A DNA stretch of 64,000 bases from Lachnospiraceae bacterium NC2004 (lineage in GTDB: Bacteria > Bacillota > Clostridia > Lachnospirales > Lachnospiraceae). The notes under the pieces were generated by a model. It saw only the letters and a program-made list of their open reading frames with translations, was not told the DNA's origin and made no database searches. A program made the translations under genes and the position numbers. The stretch lies in the NCBI GenBank assembly GCA_000621905.1, contig JHXB01000001.1, forward strand, positions 434,001 through 498,000. Reading direction: 5' to 3'. Numbering within the stretch: position 1 is the first letter of the stretch; each line of letters starts with the position of its first letter. Positions 5,169 through 64,000 of this stretch are shown piece by piece.

Positions 5169-5198
5169 AAGATTCTTCGCTGCGCTCAGAATGACAGG
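5169..5198 (-). repeat. dispersed repeat copy 2 (inverted, no hairpin module)
   Basis: Reads AAGATTCTTCGCTGCGCTCA then GAATGACA on the plus strand, the reverse complement of the common core. It fills the gap between the glycosyltransferase gene and ispA. Confidence 0.85.
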
Positions 5199-56400: not shown

Positions 56401-56493
56401 GGATAGAGAGTGTTTTTATTTAATCTAGATATTTTGTTACGCTTTTGTTATACTTTATCTGATACTATAGTTTACGTGATGTTGGAGGATTGT

Positions 56494-57318
56494 ATGATAG
56501 TTGATATTCATGATGATTTCAATCTTTATAAGATAGCTAATTCCGGTCAATGCTTTAGGGCAATTGAAGTTAAAGAAGGAATATATCGATTTATAGTAGG
56601 GGATAATTTAATATATATGAAATCTCATGAAATCAATCCATCCAATGATCTAATTACTAAGATAGACATAAGCGTAGACGAAGGAGAGTGGAATAATGTT
56701 TGGTATAATTATTTTGATTTTGATACTTCTTATGTAGATATAAGAAACAGCATTAAGGATGATGATTATCTCTTGAATGCCGCAGGGTTTGGCAAAGGGA
56801 TAAGAATCCTTAATCAGGAGCCTTTCGAGATGCTGATTTCTTTTATCATATCTCAAAGAAAGAGTATACCGGCTATAATGACATCCGTAGAGAGAATCTG
56901 TAAGCTCTACGGCAAGAAGATTAAGACGGAGTATGAAACTGTATATACATTTCCTGACGCAGATACATTGGCCAATGCTAAAGAGCTTGATACCTGTGGT
57001 TTAGGATACAGACTGCCTTATGTATTAGGCGCCGCCAAAGATGTAGCTTCCGGTTTGTTAGATTTAAAGGAGCTTTATTCATATGACGATGAAGAGCTGT
57101 TTAATGAGCTTAAGAAGGTTAAGGGAGTGGGAGATAAGGTTGCTAACTGTATATGCCTTTTTGCGTACCATAGGATAGCGAGAGCGCCTAAGGATGTATG
57201 GATAAACAGAGTAATCGAAGAAGAATATTCCGGAATCGATCCATTTCCAAAATACGATAAATATGCAGGCGTAATGCAACAATATATGTTTTATAATGCG
57301 AAGAATAACCCGTTATAG
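56494..57318 (+). CDS. 8-oxoguanine DNA glycosylase (Ogg family)
   Basis: A 274-residue base-excision repair glycosylase/lyase. The N-terminal OGG_N-type domain is visible (NLYKIANSGQCFRAIEVK). The helix-hairpin-helix motif with the catalytic lysine is VKGVGDKVANCICLFAY, and the catalytic aspartate follows in RAPKDVWINR. Length and order match the two-domain Ogg1-type enzyme rather than the shorter archaeal forms. I chose ATG 56494, five bases after GGAGG (56484-56488); earlier in-frame starts would precede that site. Its stop codon lies inside the terminator stem. Confidence 0.88.
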   Translation: MIVDIHDDFNLYKIANSGQCFRAIEVKEGIYRFIVGDNLIYMKSHEINPSNDLITKIDISVDEGEWNNVWYNYFDFDTSYVDIRNSIKDDDYLLNAAGFGKGIRILNQEPFEMLISFIISQRKSIPAIMTSVERICKLYGKKIKTEYETVYTFPDADTLANAKELDTCGLGYRLPYVLGAAKDVASGLLDLKELYSYDDEELFNELKKVKGVGDKVANCICLFAYHRIARAPKDVWINRVIEEEYSGIDPFPKYDKYAGVMQQYMFYNAKNNPL

Positions 57319-57338
57319 TTAAATGCTATAGCGGGTTT
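57309..57338 (+). terminator. terminator overlapping the ogg stop codon
   Basis: CCCGTTATAG and CTATAGCGGG pair over 10 bp (one wobble) around a 7-base loop, then TTTG. The stop TAG is part of the left arm. Confidence 0.75.
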
Positions 57339-57349
57339 GATTTATATGC

Positions 57350-57378
57350 TAGACATTTGATATTCTTGGTGTTATAAT
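57350..57378 (+). promoter_or_regulatory. promoter of the cobalamin-riboswitch transcript
   Basis: TAGACA (57350-57355), 17 bases, TATAAT (57373-57378). Transcription would begin about 12-15 bases before the aptamer. Confidence 0.7.
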
Positions 57379-57398
57379 CACCTTTGTGGAATTAGTAG

Positions 57399-57572
57399 CT
57401 ATAAGGTTCTAAAACAGTTAATACTGTGATACGGATTAATAGGGAAGACGGTGCGAGTCCGTCAGAGCCCCCGCTGCCGTATATATGTGGATGAAAGTAG
57501 CAATATGCCACTGAGTATTTCGGGAAGGCGTTACTTTTAGATGAAGCACAACTCGGAAGACCTGCCTTATAG
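57399..57572 (+). ncRNA. cobalamin riboswitch aptamer
   Basis: A perfect 8-bp closing stem CTATAAGG (57399-57406) / CCTTATAG (57565-57572) encloses the class signatures: GGATTAATAGGGAA, GGTGCGAGTCC, GCCCCCGCTGCCGT, GCCACTG, GGGAAGGCG and the B12 box with GGAAGACCTGCC (57555-57566). These are the conserved elements of adenosyl/methylcobalamin-type riboswitches. It should repress the downstream genes when cobalamin is plentiful. Confidence 0.95.
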
Positions 57573-57647
57573 AGTGAGATATGACTTTTCGGTGGGAGAA
57601 GGAGTGTTTTGACTAGTTTTTCTTTTTATGGAATTCTATTCAACACA

Positions 57648-57675
57648 GGTCTTCTTGAAATCAAGAGGGCTTTTT
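57648..57675 (+). terminator. riboswitch expression platform: intrinsic terminator
   Basis: GGTCTTCTTGA (57648-57658) and TCAAGAGGGCT (57661-57671) form an 11-bp stem with wobbles and a 2-base loop, then TTTTT. The sequence CAGGTCTTC at 57646-57654 is also a perfect 9-base complement of GAAGACCTG (57556-57564) in the B12 box, which would make an antiterminator when the aptamer is unliganded. Confidence 0.8.
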
Positions 57676-57729
57676 CTATTTTCACTTATATTTTAATACG
57701 CGTAATATCGCGAGAAAGAGGTAATTAAC

Positions 57730-58974
57730 ATGAAATCATTCAAGAAATTGATTGCTTTGGTATTAACATTTGCAATCACATTAGCTTATGTTCCTGCTAC
57801 AGCTAGTTTTGCTGATGGTCAGACACTTGTTGCAACAAGTTCAGCAAATGCATCTGAAAACGCTTCAGATAATGCTTCTAAAGACGCTTCTAAGGATGCA
57901 ACAACAGTAGCAACAGCTACAACAGAGGCTGCTTCAGCAGACGCTTCTAAAGATGCTGCATCAGGCGATGCTTCTAAGGATGCTGCTTCTAAAGATGCTT
58001 CTGCTAACGCAACCGGAACAACTGAGACTGCAATTGTATCTATTACATTTGCAAATGCAGGCAAAGTAGTTGTAGGTAACGATGCAGACAAGACACTTTT
58101 GGCATCGCAGCAGCTTAAGGTAACAGATGCTGATAAAGATGGTAAATTAACTATTAATGACGCATTTTCTATCGCTGATACTACTTATAGCTTAGGTGGA
58201 TTTGAGGCCACTGCAGGTTGGATTACTAAGATATTTGGTATAAGTACTTCGAATACTGGTATCTACGTTAATGCCGCACAGGCTAATTCTACACTCGATG
58301 CTATTACTGCCGGTGATGTATTAGTAGGATTTATTTACAAGGATACAACAGGTTTTTCTGACAAGTTACCATATTATACTCCAGTAAGTGTTACTGCAAT
58401 AGCTAACGTTGAGACTGAGATTAACGTTAATTCTATTGGGTATGATTCAAGTTGGAATCTCGCAAAAGCTCCTGTAGCTAGTGCAGATCTTGTAACTGTT
58501 GATGCTAACGGTGAATTGGTTACCGGAATTGGAATTGTTGGTAAGACAGATGCAAGTGGTAATGCTAAGGTATACTTTGCTAATGCCGGAACTTACTATG
58601 TTACTGTATTTTCTTTAGATAATATTTATGTTCCTAATGTAATCAAGGTTACTGTTGAGGCTTCATCAGAGGATATCGCTCCAGTTCCTTCTGTAAAGAA
58701 GCCTGGTAAGGTTACATCATTAAAGGCTAAAGTTAAGAAGAACAACGCTAAGACGAAGAAGATTACTCTTTCTTGGAAGAAGATGGCTGAGGCTGAGTAC
58801 TACAGAGTCTATATCTCTAAGAAGAAGTCTAAGGGATTTAAGCTTGCTAAGCAGGTTAGCAGTAATAATTTAACACTTGTTAAGAAGAAAGGTACTTACT
58901 ATGTTAAGGTTAAGGCTTATAATTCAACAGGTGCAGGTTCTTACAGCAAGGTATTAAAAGTAAAGGCTAAATAA
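57730..58974 (+). CDS. cobalamin-riboswitch-controlled secreted protein, transcobalamin-like and FN3 domains
   Basis: A 414-residue protein with a signal peptide (residues 1-28, LIALVLTFAITLAYVPATA), then a low-complexity linker of about 70 residues built from DASKDAAS-like units. A beta domain spans about residues 100-240, with GWITKIFGI, GIYVNAAQANSTLDAIT and AGDVLVGFIYKDT. This matches the order of features in transcobalamin C-terminal-like (DUF4430) domains, though weakly. A further beta segment leads to a lysine-rich fibronectin type III domain (KPGKVTSLKAKVKK, KKGTYYVKVKAYNSTGAGSY). It is the first gene under the riboswitch, so a role in corrinoid capture is likely but not proven. Confidence 0.75.
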   Translation: MKSFKKLIALVLTFAITLAYVPATASFADGQTLVATSSANASENASDNASKDASKDATTVATATTEAASADASKDAASGDASKDAASKDASANATGTTETAIVSITFANAGKVVVGNDADKTLLASQQLKVTDADKDGKLTINDAFSIADTTYSLGGFEATAGWITKIFGISTSNTGIYVNAAQANSTLDAITAGDVLVGFIYKDTTGFSDKLPYYTPVSVTAIANVETEINVNSIGYDSSWNLAKAPVASADLVTVDANGELVTGIGIVGKTDASGNAKVYFANAGTYYVTVFSLDNIYVPNVIKVTVEASSEDIAPVPSVKKPGKVTSLKAKVKKNNAKTKKITLSWKKMAEAEYYRVYISKKKSKGFKLAKQVSSNNLTLVKKKGTYYVKVKAYNSTGAGSYSKVLKVKAK

Positions 58975-58975
58975 T

Positions 58976-60559
58976 ATGAATAAAAAGATATATGTCTTTT
59001 TACTCTTTATTACAAGTGCCGTCTATCTCTTATGTGGATGGACGGCATTTCGTAATGAAGGGGAATTAGGACTAAGGAATGTAACTTCATACGAAACTCC
59101 GACAGATACGCTTAATTCTAAAGGTGAGGTCATCTTTAAGACCGAAGATTATAATTACTTTGGAACTTCTATTAATTCTCCTGTTCTTATTGTTGGTGAC
59201 TATATCTATACCGCTAATTCAAAGCTCCTATATAAGCTTGATAAAAACGGTAATGTTAAGGAGAAGTTTAATTTAGATAAGCCTGTTAATTCAACATGCA
59301 GAACTGTTTATGAAAATGGGAATATATATATTCCGCTTTCTGACGGTCTTATTGAAGCGGTTAAGGTAAATGGTGACAATATCACCAAATTATGGATTAG
59401 CGAGGAGTTTGGCAACCAGACGCTTTCTGATGTAACATTCTATAAAGATTATCTTTATTCTGCTACAACCAACGGCAATGCAAGTGAAGGTGTATTCTTT
59501 TGTCTTAATAAAAATGATGGCAAGACCATCTGGACATATAAGGGTGATACAGGTTATTACTGGACTAACTCGGTTGTTTATAAGGATAAGTTGTATTTTA
59601 CCGGTGAGAACGGCTATCTGGTAATTCACAGTTTAACTGATGATACAGTATATGATACTGTTAAAATTACAGATAAAAAGATTAGATCAGGTATCACGAT
59701 TGATAAGGATAATGGTGTATTATATATTGTTTCTAAGGATGATGGTCATATTCATAAAATCGTTTTGAACGAAGCAGGAGAGTACGTTGATCGTTTTGAG
59801 GCACCGTTAGTCACCAAAGCAGAGTACTGTTATTCAACATCTACACCAACTTTATATGATAACAGACTATATGTTGGCTGTAGCATGACCATGAAGGATG
59901 AGAACCCTAAAGGTGCAATTGCGATTATAGATAAGGATACACTTAAGACTATATATACCGCAGTCGGCAATGAATATGCAGAGATTAAATCGAGTCCATT
60001 AGTCAATGTAGTATCATCAGAGCCTGATATCAGATGTCATGTTTATGTTACTGAGAATAACAGGCCTGGCAAGCTTTTAACATTTGCAGATTATAAAGGA
60101 AATGATAAAGATATCAGTTTAGATGCCTTATACACGCCGACAGGAGATTATACGCAATACTGTATGGATTCGGTATGTGTGGATAGTGATGGTACTTTAT
60201 ATTACTCCAATGATTCAGGGGCTTTATTTAAGGTAGCTTATAAGGAATTTAAGGGGCTAAACGGGGTTAAGAAGGCTAATATTAAGAAGGTATCAAAAAA
60301 AAAGGTTAATATCGCATTTGAGAGCGATGACGAGGATACTGATACGCTTGTTTATGCCAAGTTTAACTCTAAGAAATATAAAAATGTAGCTGTAGTTAGT
60401 GGGAATAGTTATGCTTTGACATATAAGAAGCTTGTAGGTAAGAACAAGAGCTTTAAGAAGAAGGATACGGTCAGTGTGAAATTTAGAACCAGGTTAAAGT
60501 ATAAGGATGAGTATATTTATTCAGGATATTCAAAAGTGTATAAATATAAGTTTAAGTGA
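58976..60559 (+). CDS. secreted PQQ-type beta-propeller protein with FN3-like tail
   Basis: A 527-residue exported protein with an N-terminal hydrophobic signal (IYVFLLFITSAVYLLCGWT). Residues of about 60-420 show repeated propeller blades: DYIYTANSKLLYKLDKNGNV, FFCLNKNDGKTIWTYKGDTG, KDKLYFTGENGYLVIHSL, GTLYYSNDSGALFKVAYKE. The KDGKTIWTYKG form is the PQQ/quinoprotein-alcohol-dehydrogenase-like blade. The C-terminal 110 residues are a lysine-rich FN3-like domain. It starts one base after the previous stop, so it is translationally linked to the first riboswitch gene. No enzyme residues are apparent; ligand-binding or scaffold function is inferred. Confidence 0.78.
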   Translation: MNKKIYVFLLFITSAVYLLCGWTAFRNEGELGLRNVTSYETPTDTLNSKGEVIFKTEDYNYFGTSINSPVLIVGDYIYTANSKLLYKLDKNGNVKEKFNLDKPVNSTCRTVYENGNIYIPLSDGLIEAVKVNGDNITKLWISEEFGNQTLSDVTFYKDYLYSATTNGNASEGVFFCLNKNDGKTIWTYKGDTGYYWTNSVVYKDKLYFTGENGYLVIHSLTDDTVYDTVKITDKKIRSGITIDKDNGVLYIVSKDDGHIHKIVLNEAGEYVDRFEAPLVTKAEYCYSTSTPTLYDNRLYVGCSMTMKDENPKGAIAIIDKDTLKTIYTAVGNEYAEIKSSPLVNVVSSEPDIRCHVYVTENNRPGKLLTFADYKGNDKDISLDALYTPTGDYTQYCMDSVCVDSDGTLYYSNDSGALFKVAYKEFKGLNGVKKANIKKVSKKKVNIAFESDDEDTDTLVYAKFNSKKYKNVAVVSGNSYALTYKKLVGKNKSFKKKDTVSVKFRTRLKYKDEYIYSGYSKVYKYKFK

Positions 60560-60563
60560 TTAG

Positions 60564-60612
60564 TTGACCTTCTTACGAAGGTCAAAGATCCTTCGCTTCG
60601 CTCAGGATGACA
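60564..60612 (-). repeat. dispersed repeat copy 10, with TTGACC hairpin module
   Basis: TTGACCTTC-ttac-GAAGGTCAA (60564-60585), then AGATCCTTCGCTTCGCTCAG and GATGACA. Normal core orientation. It follows the propeller gene and could reduce read-through to the DUF4430 gene. Confidence 0.87.
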
Positions 60613-60736
60613 TTTAGCTACGCTTTAGTACTCAAAGAGTTGATTTAGTATGACATTTAGCTACGCTTTAGTACTCAAAGAGTTGATTTAGTATGACATT
60701 TAGCTACGTTTTAGCATTCAAAGATCTGATTTAAGA
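60608..60736 (+). repeat. 43-bp tandem repeat, three copies
   Basis: Units at 60608-60650, 60651-60693 and 60694-60736. The first two are identical as read, each beginning TGACATTTAGCTACGCTTTA; the third has several substitutions. It is not a CRISPR: there are no spacers. No gene lies in it. Confidence 0.9.
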
Positions 60737-60752
60737 TGACAGTTTGTTTTTT

Positions 60753-60804
60753 TGTCATTCTGAGCGAAGCGAAGAATCTTTATCCCGAATGAAATGAGGG
60801 ATAA
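60753..60804 (+). repeat. dispersed repeat copy 11, with TTATCCC hairpin module
   Basis: TGTCATTCTGAGCGAAGCGA then AGAATCT and TTATCCC (60780-60786) / GGGATAA (60798-60804). Same composite as copy 4. It lies in the leader of the DUF4430 gene. Confidence 0.88.
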
Positions 60805-60829
60805 TAATATTAAGATAAAGAGGAAGTAT

Positions 60830-61615
60830 ATGAATATAGTTAAGAAAACAACGGCATTACTATTGTTGTCAATATTTATACTTGGGCTTACTGCGTGCAA
60901 TAAAAGCAAGAATTCTAATAGCAGTATCGCTGATAATAGCATTAATATAACAACCGAAGAAGCAAATGATATAACCGAGGAAGTAACTGCTGATACTGTA
61001 ACAGAAAGCACAGAAGATTCCGATGAAACCAATGATAAATCTAAAAAATCTTCTAAAGCTTCATCAAAAAAGAAATCTAAAAAAACAGCCAAGGAATCAA
61101 CTACTGAAACAGATAGTATCGATAAAGAAATCAACAAAAAGACTACCACCAAAACAACCAAAGACAGTAGTAAAAACAGTAATAAATCAAACCCAAAAAC
61201 TAGCAATAAAGAATCTCAAAAATCAAACGATAAACTAACTTGCTCACTAAAGATCGAGTGCAAAGAAATTCTTGATGGCAATATCGATAAACTGTCAGTT
61301 CCTAAGAGAGCATTAGTTCCTAAAGACGGGATAATATATGATAATGCAAGTGTTACATTTGAAAAAGGAGACACTGTGTGGGATGTACTTTCTAAGGAGG
61401 TTAAAAAGAATTCGATTCTGATGGAATACTCATATGTTCCGGTGTACAAGACCAATTATATCGAGGGAATAGCCGGACTTTATGAGTTTGACGCAGGAGA
61501 CACATCCGGTTGGCGATATATGGTAAATGGTCAATATCCTGCCTATGGATGTGATAAATATAAACTCAATAATAATGATCAAATAGTATGGCACTATACC
61601 GTTAAATTGGATTAA
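60830..61615 (+). CDS. DUF4430 (transcobalamin C-terminal-like) lipoprotein
   Basis: A 261-residue lipoprotein: signal peptide with lipobox GLTAC (Cys about residue 23), then a long Ser/Lys/Thr/Glu linker (about 25-140) that would span the wall. The C-terminal domain of about 120 residues has the DUF4430 pattern: NASVTFEKGDTVWDVLSKEV, GLYEFDAGDTSGWRYMVNGQ and NNDQIVWHYTVKL. DUF4430 (PF14478) is related to the beta domain of intrinsic factor and transcobalamin, which contacts cobalamin. I chose ATG 60830 behind AGAGGAAG; the frame from 60794 starts inside a dispersed repeat. EcfT follows after 10 bases. Confidence 0.87.
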   Translation: MNIVKKTTALLLLSIFILGLTACNKSKNSNSSIADNSINITTEEANDITEEVTADTVTESTEDSDETNDKSKKSSKASSKKKSKKTAKESTTETDSIDKEINKKTTTKTTKDSSKNSNKSNPKTSNKESQKSNDKLTCSLKIECKEILDGNIDKLSVPKRALVPKDGIIYDNASVTFEKGDTVWDVLSKEVKKNSILMEYSYVPVYKTNYIEGIAGLYEFDAGDTSGWRYMVNGQYPAYGCDKYKLNNNDQIVWHYTVKLD

Positions 61616-61625
61616 AGGTGACGAT

Positions 61626-62483
61626 ATGTGGAATGGCAAGTCAATTAAAATGTGCGAGTTTCATCCTCTGACATTTTTTGTATATTTTATGGTTCTGATA
61701 GGCAGTATCATATTCTTAGGTAATCCCTATTTATATGTTACTGTTTTATCTGTATCTCTTTTAATCTCGATATATTTTGAAGGACTTGCTATTTTTAAAC
61801 TATTCTTTAAATTGCTCATAATATCAATTCTGTTTGCTCTTATTAATCCTTTATTTTCTCATGAGGGAATGACTATTATAACATACTTTCCAAATGGAAA
61901 CGCATTAACTCTTGAATCCATATATTTTGGAATCAGTATGGGTGTCTTATTTATATCTATAATGCTCCTTTTTAACGTTTTTAACAAGACGATGTGGCCT
62001 GACAGATGGGTTGAACTTTTCGGCAATATATCTCCGACATTTGCATTGATGATTTCAATGATATTCAGGTTTATCAACAGGTTCATTGTTATATATAAAG
62101 AGCTAAAGCTTGTCCACAAGAACAAGAGTCCGTTCTTTTATTTCTCTATGTTAGTTACATATGCTCTTGAAAGCTCAATAGACACTGCGGATTCAATGGC
62201 TGCAAGAGGATATAAAACCTCTAAAAGAACTCATTACAAAAGGCAGAAGATTAAGTCAGCAGATATAGCTATTATTATTGCAAGCATTTTATTTCTTGCT
62301 TTTTCAATCTATATGAATAAAACTTATAAATTTACTTTTTATTATTATCCAAACACCGGATTATATACAGACAGATTAAGCTTTATCGCTGTTATACTAT
62401 CATATATTATTTATTCTATTATTCCATTAATTATTGAGATTACGGAGGATATAAAGTGGAGATTATTGACATCAAAAATATAA
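61626..62483 (+). CDS. ecfT: ECF transporter transmembrane subunit (EcfT)
   Basis: A 285-residue membrane protein with about six helices (for example TFFVYFMVLIGSIIFLG, VTVLSVSLLISIYF, LIISILFALINPLF). The cytoplasmic coupling motif MAARGYKTSKRTHYKR near residue 200 is the conserved Ala-Arg-Gly signature of EcfT proteins. EcfT joins the two ATPases to a substrate-specific S subunit. An AAGGTG site precedes ATG 61626. It overlaps the ATPase gene start by 28 bases, so the two are tightly coupled. The substrate is inferred as cobalamin from the riboswitch and the DUF4430 neighbour. Confidence 0.88.
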   Translation: MWNGKSIKMCEFHPLTFFVYFMVLIGSIIFLGNPYLYVTVLSVSLLISIYFEGLAIFKLFFKLLIISILFALINPLFSHEGMTIITYFPNGNALTLESIYFGISMGVLFISIMLLFNVFNKTMWPDRWVELFGNISPTFALMISMIFRFINRFIVIYKELKLVHKNKSPFFYFSMLVTYALESSIDTADSMAARGYKTSKRTHYKRQKIKSADIAIIIASILFLAFSIYMNKTYKFTFYYYPNTGLYTDRLSFIAVILSYIIYSIIPLIIEITEDIKWRLLTSKI

Positions 62484-64000
62484 CATTTTCATATCCAAAT
62501 CAAAAAGAGCCTGCTGTAATAGACGCTTCTTTTACTGCAAATGAAGGAGAGTTTGTTATATTAAGCGGATATTCAGGGTCCGGTAAGACAACCCTTTTAA
62601 AATGCTTGAAACCTGAAATTACACCAAACGGTAAGGTTGAGGGTGAGATTGTATATGACGGACAGAATATTGCTGCTTATACACCTAAAGATATCGCATC
62701 TAATGTCGGCTATCTCTTTCAGAATCCTTATACTCAAGTGGTGACTGACAGGGTTATGTCAGAGCTTGCATTTTCAATGGAGAGCCTTTCATATAAACAG
62801 GAGCTGATGAACAGAAGAATCGCTGAAATCGTTGCTATTATGGGCCTTGAAGGATTAATCGATAAATCATGTGATGAGCTTTCAGGTGGAGAACTGCAGC
62901 TTATCAATCTTGCCTCGATTCTTGTTACTGAACCTAAGATACTACTCCTTGATGAGCCGACTGCAATGCTTGACCCTATAGCAGAAGAGAAGTTTAACAG
63001 TACAATTAAGATGATCAATAAAGAACTTAATATTACGGTTATCTATTCTACGCATAATTACAATAACTTGCTTGATATCTCCGACAGGCTTATTGTCCTT
63101 GATTCAGGCCATATTATTGCAAATGATACTCCTAAAGGTGCTTTGATAAGCCTTTTAGATAATGGACATAAAGATCTTTTAAATATTTATTTAAGAGCAT
63201 GGAATCACTACGGAAAAGACAACACCTTTCCGCTTAATATGTCAGATTTAAAAGAACTTATTAGGTCTAACTATAAAAAACAGGATATTAAAATCGATGA
63301 TTCAAACGATAACACTGAGACTGTAATAGAACTAAAAAGTATATATTACAGATATAACAGGAATTCTAAAGATGTTATAAAGTCCTTGAATCTAAAGGTT
63401 AATAAAGGAAATGTAATAAGCATCCTTGGAGGAAACGGCTCCGGTAAATCAACGCTTCTTTCCATAATTAATTCATCGAGAAGACCGTATAAAGGCAAGG
63501 TTAAGGTTAGTGAAATAACTTCTTTAATGCCACAGTTAACCGAGCTTATATTTACCAAAGATAAAGTAGGTTTGATGTTAAGCGACGACGCTAAGAATCT
63601 TGCACCTGACTTTTATGACAGATATAAAGACGCGCATCCATATGATTTAAGTGGTGGAGAGAAGGGGTTACTTGGATTTTTAACTGCAATTTCAAGCCCT
63701 TATGACATACTTCTTCTCGATGAGCCGACCAAGGGTATGGATAACAAGCAAAAGAATATACTTAAGGACTACATCCTAAAGGTTAAGGAACAAGAAAAGA
63801 CCGTTATAATCGTCACACACGACATAGAATTTGCATCATATGTATCAGATAAGATAGGCATGATGTTTGACGGCAGTATTGTAGGAGAAGCATCACCTTT
63901 AGACTTCTTTAAGGACAACATATACTACAAGCCTTTTATATCAAGAGTTATGAAGAACATTGACGATTCTTTATATTTAGAGGAACAACTTTATGAACTA
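62456..64000 (+). CDS. fused double ABC ATPase of an ECF transporter (runs off window)
   Basis: At least 515 codons, open to the window edge. It starts with GTG 62456, seven bases after GGAGG; it overlaps the ecfT 3' end. Domain 1 has Walker A GYSGSGKTT, Q-loop LFQNPYTQVVTDRVM, signature LSGGELQLINLAS, LLLDEPTAMLD and the switch His in YSTHN. Domain 2 (from about residue 285) has GGNGSGKST, signature DLSGGEKGLLGFL, LLLDEPTKGMD and VTHD. The two halves correspond to EcfA and EcfA' fused in one chain, as in YkoD-type systems. Both ATP sites look intact. The stop codon and any S subunit lie to the right of the window. Confidence 0.9.
   Translation, partial: MEIIDIKNITFSYPNQKEPAVIDASFTANEGEFVILSGYSGSGKTTLLKCLKPEITPNGKVEGEIVYDGQNIAAYTPKDIASNVGYLFQNPYTQVVTDRVMSELAFSMESLSYKQELMNRRIAEIVAIMGLEGLIDKSCDELSGGELQLINLASILVTEPKILLLDEPTAMLDPIAEEKFNSTIKMINKELNITVIYSTHNYNNLLDISDRLIVLDSGHIIANDTPKGALISLLDNGHKDLLNIYLRAWNHYGKDNTFPLNMSDLKELIRSNYKKQDIKIDDSNDNTETVIELKSIYYRYNRNSKDVIKSLNLKVNKGNVISILGGNGSGKSTLLSIINSSRRPYKGKVKVSEITSLMPQLTELIFTKDKVGLMLSDDAKNLAPDFYDRYKDAHPYDLSGGEKGLLGFLTAISSPYDILLLDEPTKGMDNKQKNILKDYILKVKEQEKTVIIVTHDIEFASYVSDKIGMMFDGSIVGEASPLDFFKDNIYYKPFISRVMKNIDDSLYLEEQLYEL

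Follow-up and report, generated by a model that had tools for sequence, protein, structure and literature searches.

How does a Gram-positive bacterium catch vitamin B12 outside the cell before importing it? Such capture by Gram-positive bacteria of the gut and the soil is little known (passages of PMC8941943 describe it as less known in the Firmicutes), and competition for the vitamin shapes communities. Here, we describe a locus at the right end of a 64,000-nucleotide stretch of the Lachnospiraceae bacterium NC2004 genome (contig JHXB01000001.1, positions 434,001 to 498,000). The whole stretch is called the window, and positions are counted from its first letter. At its right end, a promoter-like site, a cobalamin riboswitch and a terminator precede five plus-strand genes, which encode two exported proteins (protein 1 and a beta-propeller), a DUF4430 lipoprotein, and the T component and fused ATPases of an energy-coupling factor (ECF) importer. 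We read the locus as a B12-repressed operon for scavenging corrinoids, in which a CbrT-type importer works with three exported catchers, and we put the probability of this reading at about 75%.

A preliminary description of this DNA, made from its letters alone, had proposed that exported proteins capture corrinoid at the surface and hand it to the importer. The import half of that proposal is well supported by a CbrT-like S component, a conserved neighbourhood and a leader with the parts of a B12-off switch; import of B12 or another corrinoid is very likely. The capture and hand-over half is made likely by genetic linkage, export signals, gene fusions and domain relationships.

Leader, importer and operon continuity

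The leader begins with a sigma-70-type promoter-like site on the plus strand (57350-57378; TAGACA and TATAAT separated by 17 nt, with an extended -10 TG) that matches at 11 of 12 positions. It is the best of 26 such sites in the region, where shuffled sequences gave more sites (mean 33.5), and the same hexamers are seen by eye in a sister species (genome G152). The cobalamin riboswitch noticed in the preliminary description is full length: the RF00174 aptamer (57387-57583, plus strand) covers model positions 1-189 of 189 and scores 93.7 bits against a gathering score of 31.5 (E 5.1e-22). It is the only RF00174 match in the genome at E 0.001. The 3' strand of the aptamer, GGAAGACCTG (57555-57564, plus strand), can pair with CAGGTCTTCT (57646-57655), the 5' arm of an intrinsic terminator hairpin followed by a T run (57647-57672, plus strand; z -4.2 against shuffles). 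The two structures are alternative folds, the first of them a predicted antiterminator. Leader RNA cut before the 3' arm of the terminator folds as the antiterminator, at -32 to -33 kcal/mol, and leader RNA including that arm folds into the terminator. Both aptamer and terminator are kept upstream of the same gene in G152.

This layout predicts a B12-off switch. When internal cobalamin is low, the aptamer 3' strand would engage the terminator's 5' arm, letting transcription continue; bound cobalamin would keep the strand within the aptamer and allow the terminator to form.

The S component of the importer is encoded by a gene that the preliminary description had suggested might lie to the right of position 64000. 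It starts at 63993, overlapping the end of the double EcfA gene, and only its first bases are inside the window (63993-64571 in window numbering, plus strand, equal to G000:C1:497993-498571; 192 amino acids). Rather than belonging to another vitamin class, the protein is closest to CbrT. Its best match in the PDB is chain A of 6FNP, the CbrT of Lactobacillus delbrueckii, with E 2.4e-14 for the sequence alone (the next match has E 0.011) and E 2.6e-23 for a profile of 11 sequences, for which the next S components follow at 7.1e-5 and 1.3e-4. The solved ECF-CbrT complex carries cobalamin and cobinamide, according to passages of PMC5997447. The S component also passes the cut-off of the Pfam family ECF-ribofla_trS and weakly matches the NCBI folT family; a riboflavin or folate carrier was considered and rejected, CbrT being far better among solved S components.

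The fused double EcfA (62456-64000, plus strand, with a stop that ends at 64003, outside the window; 515 amino acids) has two Walker A, two LSGG and two Walker B motifs, as expected for the fused double ATPase first noticed. EcfA1 is the best solved relative of its first half, and its best NCBI families are ECF ATPases, matched below their cut-offs. The EcfT transmembrane component (61626-62483, plus strand) has an AARG motif. It is named from its homology to the T proteins found in sister loci and has no CbiQ match of its own. When seven sister-locus T proteins were compared with CbiQ, one (L042) was over the cut-off (E 1.1e-7), two (L109 and L045) were below it and four had no match.

The preliminary description had left open whether all five genes form one transcript. 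A dispersed palindromic repeat with 43-nt internal tandem copies (60584-60781, no strand assigned) lies between the propeller and DUF4430 genes, and its family has 94 matching pieces in the genome. The insert might split the operon of this strain, leaving protein 1 and the propeller alone under B12 control and the importer to separate expression. The gap with its insert does fold into a very stable hairpin, at about -77 kcal/mol, but a terminator scan of the gap found no terminator-like site, no second cobalamin riboswitch was found in the genome, and the corresponding gap in G152 is just 27 nt with no repeat insert. We regard a split as rather improbable. Because the G152 gap is 27 nt long and free of the insert, the genes probably formed one tight operon before the repeat was inserted. 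The repeats were also considered as functional parts of the operon, and this was rejected: they form a dispersed family and are absent from G152. Further copies in the window lie at 5180, 6555, 6777, 12759 and 34616.

The three exported proteins

Protein 1 (57730-58974, plus strand; 414 amino acids) has a signal-like N-terminus, recognized by eye, a low-complexity linker, a DUF4430-like domain, a beta-sandwich and a Lys-rich FN3 domain. The DUF4430-like domain (approximately residues 97-215; 58018-58374, plus strand) contains an EF-hand-like DADKDGKLTIND loop, seen by eye, and was recognized through profile-profile comparison. A family profile built from 22 copies in the fetched loci aligned with a DUF4430 profile of 163 sequences over most of the domain, with an hhalign probability of 91.7% (E 7.9e-7). 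As controls, 20 column-shuffled profiles reached at most 0.6% against DUF4430, and the propeller, S, T and A profiles at most 1.1%. A comparison of smaller profiles (9 and 13 sequences) was weak, at 30%. From the alignment, we take protein 1 to carry a divergent DUF4430 domain; the possible transcobalamin-like domain of the preliminary description is thus present, but too divergent to be matched by PF14478.

The FN3 domain (residues 322-414; 58693-58971, plus strand) scores 24 bits, just below the Pfam cut-off of 25 bits (E 4.5e-5), and is borne out by structure prediction. The AlphaFold2 model of residues 97-414 has a mean predicted local distance difference test score (pLDDT) of 82, and its C-terminal domain superposes on FN3 with Z 12.2 and a root-mean-square deviation (rmsd) of 1.8 over 88 aligned residues. 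Fold searches with this model were dominated by FN3 and other immunoglobulin-like domains.

The second exported protein (58976-60559, plus strand; 527 amino acids) is a beta-propeller of the PQQ/BamB type, predicted to have eight blades, with a Lys-rich C-terminal extension. Export was judged by eye, and by eye its N-terminus lacks a standard lipobox. Its Pfam matches, of the ACSF4/PQQ_2 type, are all under the cut-off, and the propeller first proposed from the letters is supported by its predicted fold. The structural model (mean pLDDT 70, and under 50 in fragment residues 1-34 and 392-497) superposes on the designed propeller Cake8 (Z 36.2, rmsd 2.2, 315 residues aligned), YxaL (Z 36.0) and BamB (Z 34), of which we take YxaL and BamB to be eight-bladed. 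A relationship to BtuG was considered and judged improbable, since the protein matches eight-bladed propellers; BtuG is not among the fold matches listed, which by itself excludes nothing.

The DUF4430 lipoprotein (60794-61615, plus strand; likely true start 60830) has the lipobox LTAC, read by eye, and matches PF14478 as anticipated, with 71 bits against a cut-off of 23.8 (E 1.2e-19). A search of the PDB with its sequence alone gave no match.

We infer that these proteins bind corrinoid and pass it inwards. The lipoprotein would lie next to the importer, at the outside of the cell membrane, and pass corrinoid to CbrT; protein 1 and the propeller would catch it further out, singly or paired, and their Lys-rich tails perhaps hold them in the wall. 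On the evidence of linkage and domain content, capture of corrinoid by the exported parts is likely.

Conservation, and propeller or toroid

Conservation was surveyed in 150 genomes of the family, among which the genome of the window is counted for the propeller, and in named records, represented by the best 80 of 572 CbrT loci. The family genomes contain an S match in 54 cases, a cobalamin riboswitch in 124 and DUF4430 in 72. We call an S place strong at E values up to 1.2e-13, except that one genome (G065, 3.8e-14) is placed among the 21 weaker places because of its arrangement. Riboswitch linkage counts in this survey are lower bounds, and second segments of split S and propeller matches were dropped before linkage was counted. 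DUF4430 lies within 12 kb of 32 of the 35 strong S places, and a listed riboswitch within 12 kb of at least 18 of them; with G065 counted as strong, the numbers found by hand are 33/36 and at least 19/36. Conversely, at least 76 of the 107 DUF4430 places are near a listed riboswitch or an S component. In the family loci, 24 of 26 matches to a riboswitch model made for this survey share the strand of the S gene, with L054 and L068 as the exceptions (strands read by eye).

The best 80 named loci contain DUF4430 in 63 cases, T in 73 and a double A in 76, and of the 67 loci in which its position could be judged, 54 have DUF4430 directly upstream of T. The riboswitch model (E <0.01) finds a match in 37, upstream of S in 34 and only downstream in L124, L153 and L168; all 50 matches up to E 0.1 are on the operon strand. 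No riboswitch came up in Rfam scans of 29 short loci of about 3.5 kb, and longer stretches or whole genomes show one upstream in many. By title, the carriers include Lachnospiraceae, Oscillospiraceae, Paenibacillus, Bacillus, Enterococcus, Lacticaseibacillus, Bifidobacteriaceae and Coriobacteriaceae; one metagenome-assembled genome is titled as an archaeon, and the labels of such genomes may be wrong. The sister species G152 keeps both leader and gene order. The neighbourhood, which the preliminary description had asked to be surveyed, is conserved: the order DUF4430-T-A-S is widespread in Bacillota, where a cobalamin riboswitch often precedes it.

In many genomes, EcfA-EcfA-S is encoded as one protein of about 800-1050 amino acids in L038-L041, L047, L049, L051, L052, L059 and many of L127-L188, an unusual covalent tie of the ATPases to the S component. 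A second S-like protein with two S matches lies upstream of DUF4430 in the same CbrT locus at L112:4779-5735, and double S matches in a single open reading frame (ORF) also occur in L061, L062, L063, L064 and L066.

A second, shorter arrangement (G065, G024, G055, G042, G077 and others) combines a riboswitch and a short DUF4430 gene with an S component that is more distant. Among the 21 weaker S places, 18 are near DUF4430; no T homologue was seen in the fetched loci L065, L067 and L068-L072. These places have a bearing on the substrate, which might be a cobalamin precursor or relative, such as cobinamide, another cobamide or a cobalt chelate. In its favour, a listed riboswitch lies within 12 kb of just seven of these 21 places, as a lower bound, and the CbrT of L. 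delbrueckii moves cobinamide as well (passages of PMC5997447). The switch and the relationship to CbrT, however, indicate the cobalamin family, and we think such a substrate improbable.

Propeller homologues are rare. They were found in 13 of the 150 family genomes, and 11 of the 13 propeller places in the 12 other genomes have a listed cobalamin riboswitch or a strong S gene no more than 12 kb away, where a simple chance expectation is about 1%. The two places away from B12 loci (G090 and G142) are weak partial matches. All five propellers in the best 80 named loci lie beside CbrT genes simply because the set was assembled from CbrT loci. The propeller is fused to DUF4430 in four ORFs and to the DUF4430-like domain in two, and the propeller of G152 is 84% identical to that of the window.

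Many sister loci encode an exported alpha/alpha-toroid protein instead of the propeller. The toroid profile matches squalene-hopene cyclase (E 6e-10). Pfam matches to SQHop/Prenyltrans were found in 2/7, 0/9, 6/7, 3/7 and 6/6 proteins of successive batches, many of them below the cut-off; the 6/6 batch had been picked from toroid-model matches, and the 0/9 batch and part of the 3/7 batch consisted of proteins picked as propellers, as protein 1 or as unknowns. Segments with Pfam support served as seeds for the toroid model, whose iterations used the same loci, and Pfam alone finds fewer toroids. We applied it to 89 intact loci, each having S, T and A and 4 kb or more of sequence ahead of T, drawn from 123 examined with one duplicate left out; the window is not among them. 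DUF4430 occurs in 84, the toroid in 68, the propeller in 10 and both of the latter in two, with a Fisher p of 9.5e-5 when relatedness is ignored. This comparison was made after the genus-mates of the window had been seen, and the loci were picked by CbrT similarity and are related to one another, so p-values overstate. The propeller thus occurs largely instead of the toroid at sister B12 loci. Of the genus-mates, G150 has a toroid ORF in the slot of the propeller, and G153 joins a DUF4430-like domain, a toroid and a weak FN3 match in one protein of 729 amino acids. In 37 cases, a single ORF encodes both toroid and DUF4430. The window proteins themselves gave no significant match to the toroid model. 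In L118_15, L050_22, L055_25, L057_28 and L058_17, single proteins of about 590-690 amino acids begin with the toroid and end with DUF4430, a domain order like that of transcobalamin, and are encoded immediately ahead of EcfT.

Could protein 1 and the propeller have nothing to do with corrinoid? In that case, only the lipoprotein and CbrT would bind it, and the other two would serve as scaffold of the wall or in adhesion, placed under the switch by the position of their genes. Their surface domains are generic (FN3, BamB/PQQ-type blades and, by eye, Lys-rich tails), and the propeller is missing from 79 of the 89 intact CbrT loci. But 11 of the 13 family propeller places are at B12 loci, and in six ORFs the propeller is fused to DUF4430 or to a DUF4430-like domain. 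Protein 1 likewise has a domain related to DUF4430, and the genes for protein 1 and the propeller come first behind the riboswitch in two species. We consider a scaffold role unlikely.

Several observations weigh against an operon of importer and exported catchers. At the importer, the window EcfT has no CbiQ or ECF match, just two unrelated matches below the cut-off. At the switch, 17 of the 35 strong S places have no listed riboswitch within 12 kb, and 8 of the 33 genomes with such loci gave no riboswitch match. Some loci are cut off by the end of a contig, and one further match, in G134, comes from the riboswitch model built here. For protein 1, PF14478 gives no match up to E 1, nor does a DUF4430 profile built here with the filters off. 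The propeller is present in only 10 of the 89 intact sister loci and was not found in three of the five genomes of the genus (two of these three are 84% complete). Because it is found in only a few sister loci and genus genomes, the propeller is not essential to import. Its nearest solved relatives are designed propellers, YxaL and BamB, for none of which, to our knowledge, B12 binding is known. Finally, PF02965 was not found in the genome of the window.

Relation to known systems and neighbouring genes

In ECF-CbrT of L. delbrueckii (6FNP), the S component is of the same family and EcfT and EcfA components are likewise present. The window operon differs in encoding a dedicated module, with a T and a fused double A of its own; in L. 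delbrueckii, several S components draw on a single module (passages of PMC5997447). The window operon also adds a riboswitch and three exported proteins. The L. delbrueckii cluster nrdJ-cbrS-cbrT-pduO names a cbrS gene (same source), which is possibly a DUF4430 protein. In L. rhamnosus, a DUF4430 protein (LRHMDP2_2713/LGG_02295) that is near an adenosylcobalamin-dependent reductase gene is tabulated as 'Additional lipoprotein component of putative cobalamin ECF transporter'; passages of the accompanying text call it 'of unknown function' and mention no test or further exported parts (PMC9963975). The preliminary description knew of no described system with this exact set. The core of DUF4430 and cobalamin ECF transporter was already annotated and is not new; the exported set appears to be. 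The literature search found no title or abstract on bacterial transcobalamin-like proteins with ECF, although parts of the locus may have been described before.

BtuG of Bacteroides is the closest functional parallel. Passages on the BtuG/BtuH and BtuB system describe riboswitch-controlled B12 loci with exported binders that include a beta-propeller (PMC6143338, PMC10404256, PMC8941943). That system serves a Gram-negative outer membrane through a TonB-dependent transporter, whereas the window encodes an ECF importer, and BtuG is a seven-bladed lipoprotein, whereas the window propeller matches eight-bladed ones. The surface propeller BtuG2 takes B12 from intrinsic factor (passages of PMC6143338), and the exported parts of the window might similarly strip corrinoid from other binders (intrinsic factor, haptocorrin or the proteins of other bacteria) instead of catching the free vitamin. 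Several carriers of related loci, however, are Paenibacillus or Bacillus, for which host proteins are an unlikely target (those loci mostly have the toroid, not the propeller), and the window propeller is of a different, eight-bladed type with no BtuG-type match among those listed. We think stripping very improbable.

The animal B12 carriers offer another comparison. Transcobalamin pairs an alpha/alpha toroid with DUF4430, in that order. Sister loci pair DUF4430 with an exported alpha/alpha toroid, often in one chain, an arrangement not seen in the window. DUF4430 is assigned as the C-terminal domain of transcobalamin and intrinsic factor in passages of PMC4350170. Bacterial DUF4430 and toroid profiles compared with solved structures gave no match to intrinsic factor or transcobalamin, and for this reason the link rests on the published DUF4430 assignment, on the toroid of transcobalamin, on domain composition and on PF01122 matches below the cut-off. 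The latter were found in four of 35 genomes: in G113, G061 and G123 with a DUF4430 or propeller gene about 3 kb away or less, and in G108 at 37 kb from the DUF4430 of its contig. Tentatively, and at somewhat worse than even odds, the exported proteins may be a bacterial counterpart of transcobalamin, in which a DUF4430-type domain and another domain together clamp corrinoid. In most sister loci that other domain would be the toroid, as in transcobalamin. The propeller would here stand in the place of the toroid, the two being alternatives at the same B12 loci, and would be a Gram-positive propeller trap independent of BtuG.

This large family of conserved, often riboswitch-marked loci offers candidates for binding: the DUF4430 lipoprotein, the DUF4430-like protein, the propeller and the toroids of sister loci. 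If they bind, DUF4430 would gain a bacterial function, tests of which are absent from the published passages on the domain (PMC4350170, PMC9963975). Binding would also tie bacterial surface proteins to the way in which human intrinsic factor and transcobalamin pair their domains, and would give a second, independent case of a propeller serving as a B12 trap.

CbiD was not found in the genome of the window, which is as expected for a corrinoid scavenger. Downstream of the S gene are an AAA_33-type kinase-like gene, mutL and a miaA-like gene (the last two named by eye). Just upstream of the locus is an 8-oxoguanine DNA glycosylase-like gene (56410-57318) with its own terminator-like site (57307-57337). 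Other genes accompany sister loci. In favour of the operon reading, genes from families of cobalamin synthesis border a CbrT-propeller locus: CobB/CobQ-like, CbiB-like, aminotransferase and CobQ-like genes directly follow it at L090:11636-16658 (G051, contig C33). Genes for a MoxR ATPase, DUF58 and transglutaminase, identified with Pfam, come after a CbrT or propeller locus at L085:14068-18645 (G133, contig C72), and by N-terminal likeness the same trail occurs at L088, L089, L091 and L061. The Pfam model bpMoxR, described for MoxR-vWA-propeller systems, also matches the L085 gene.

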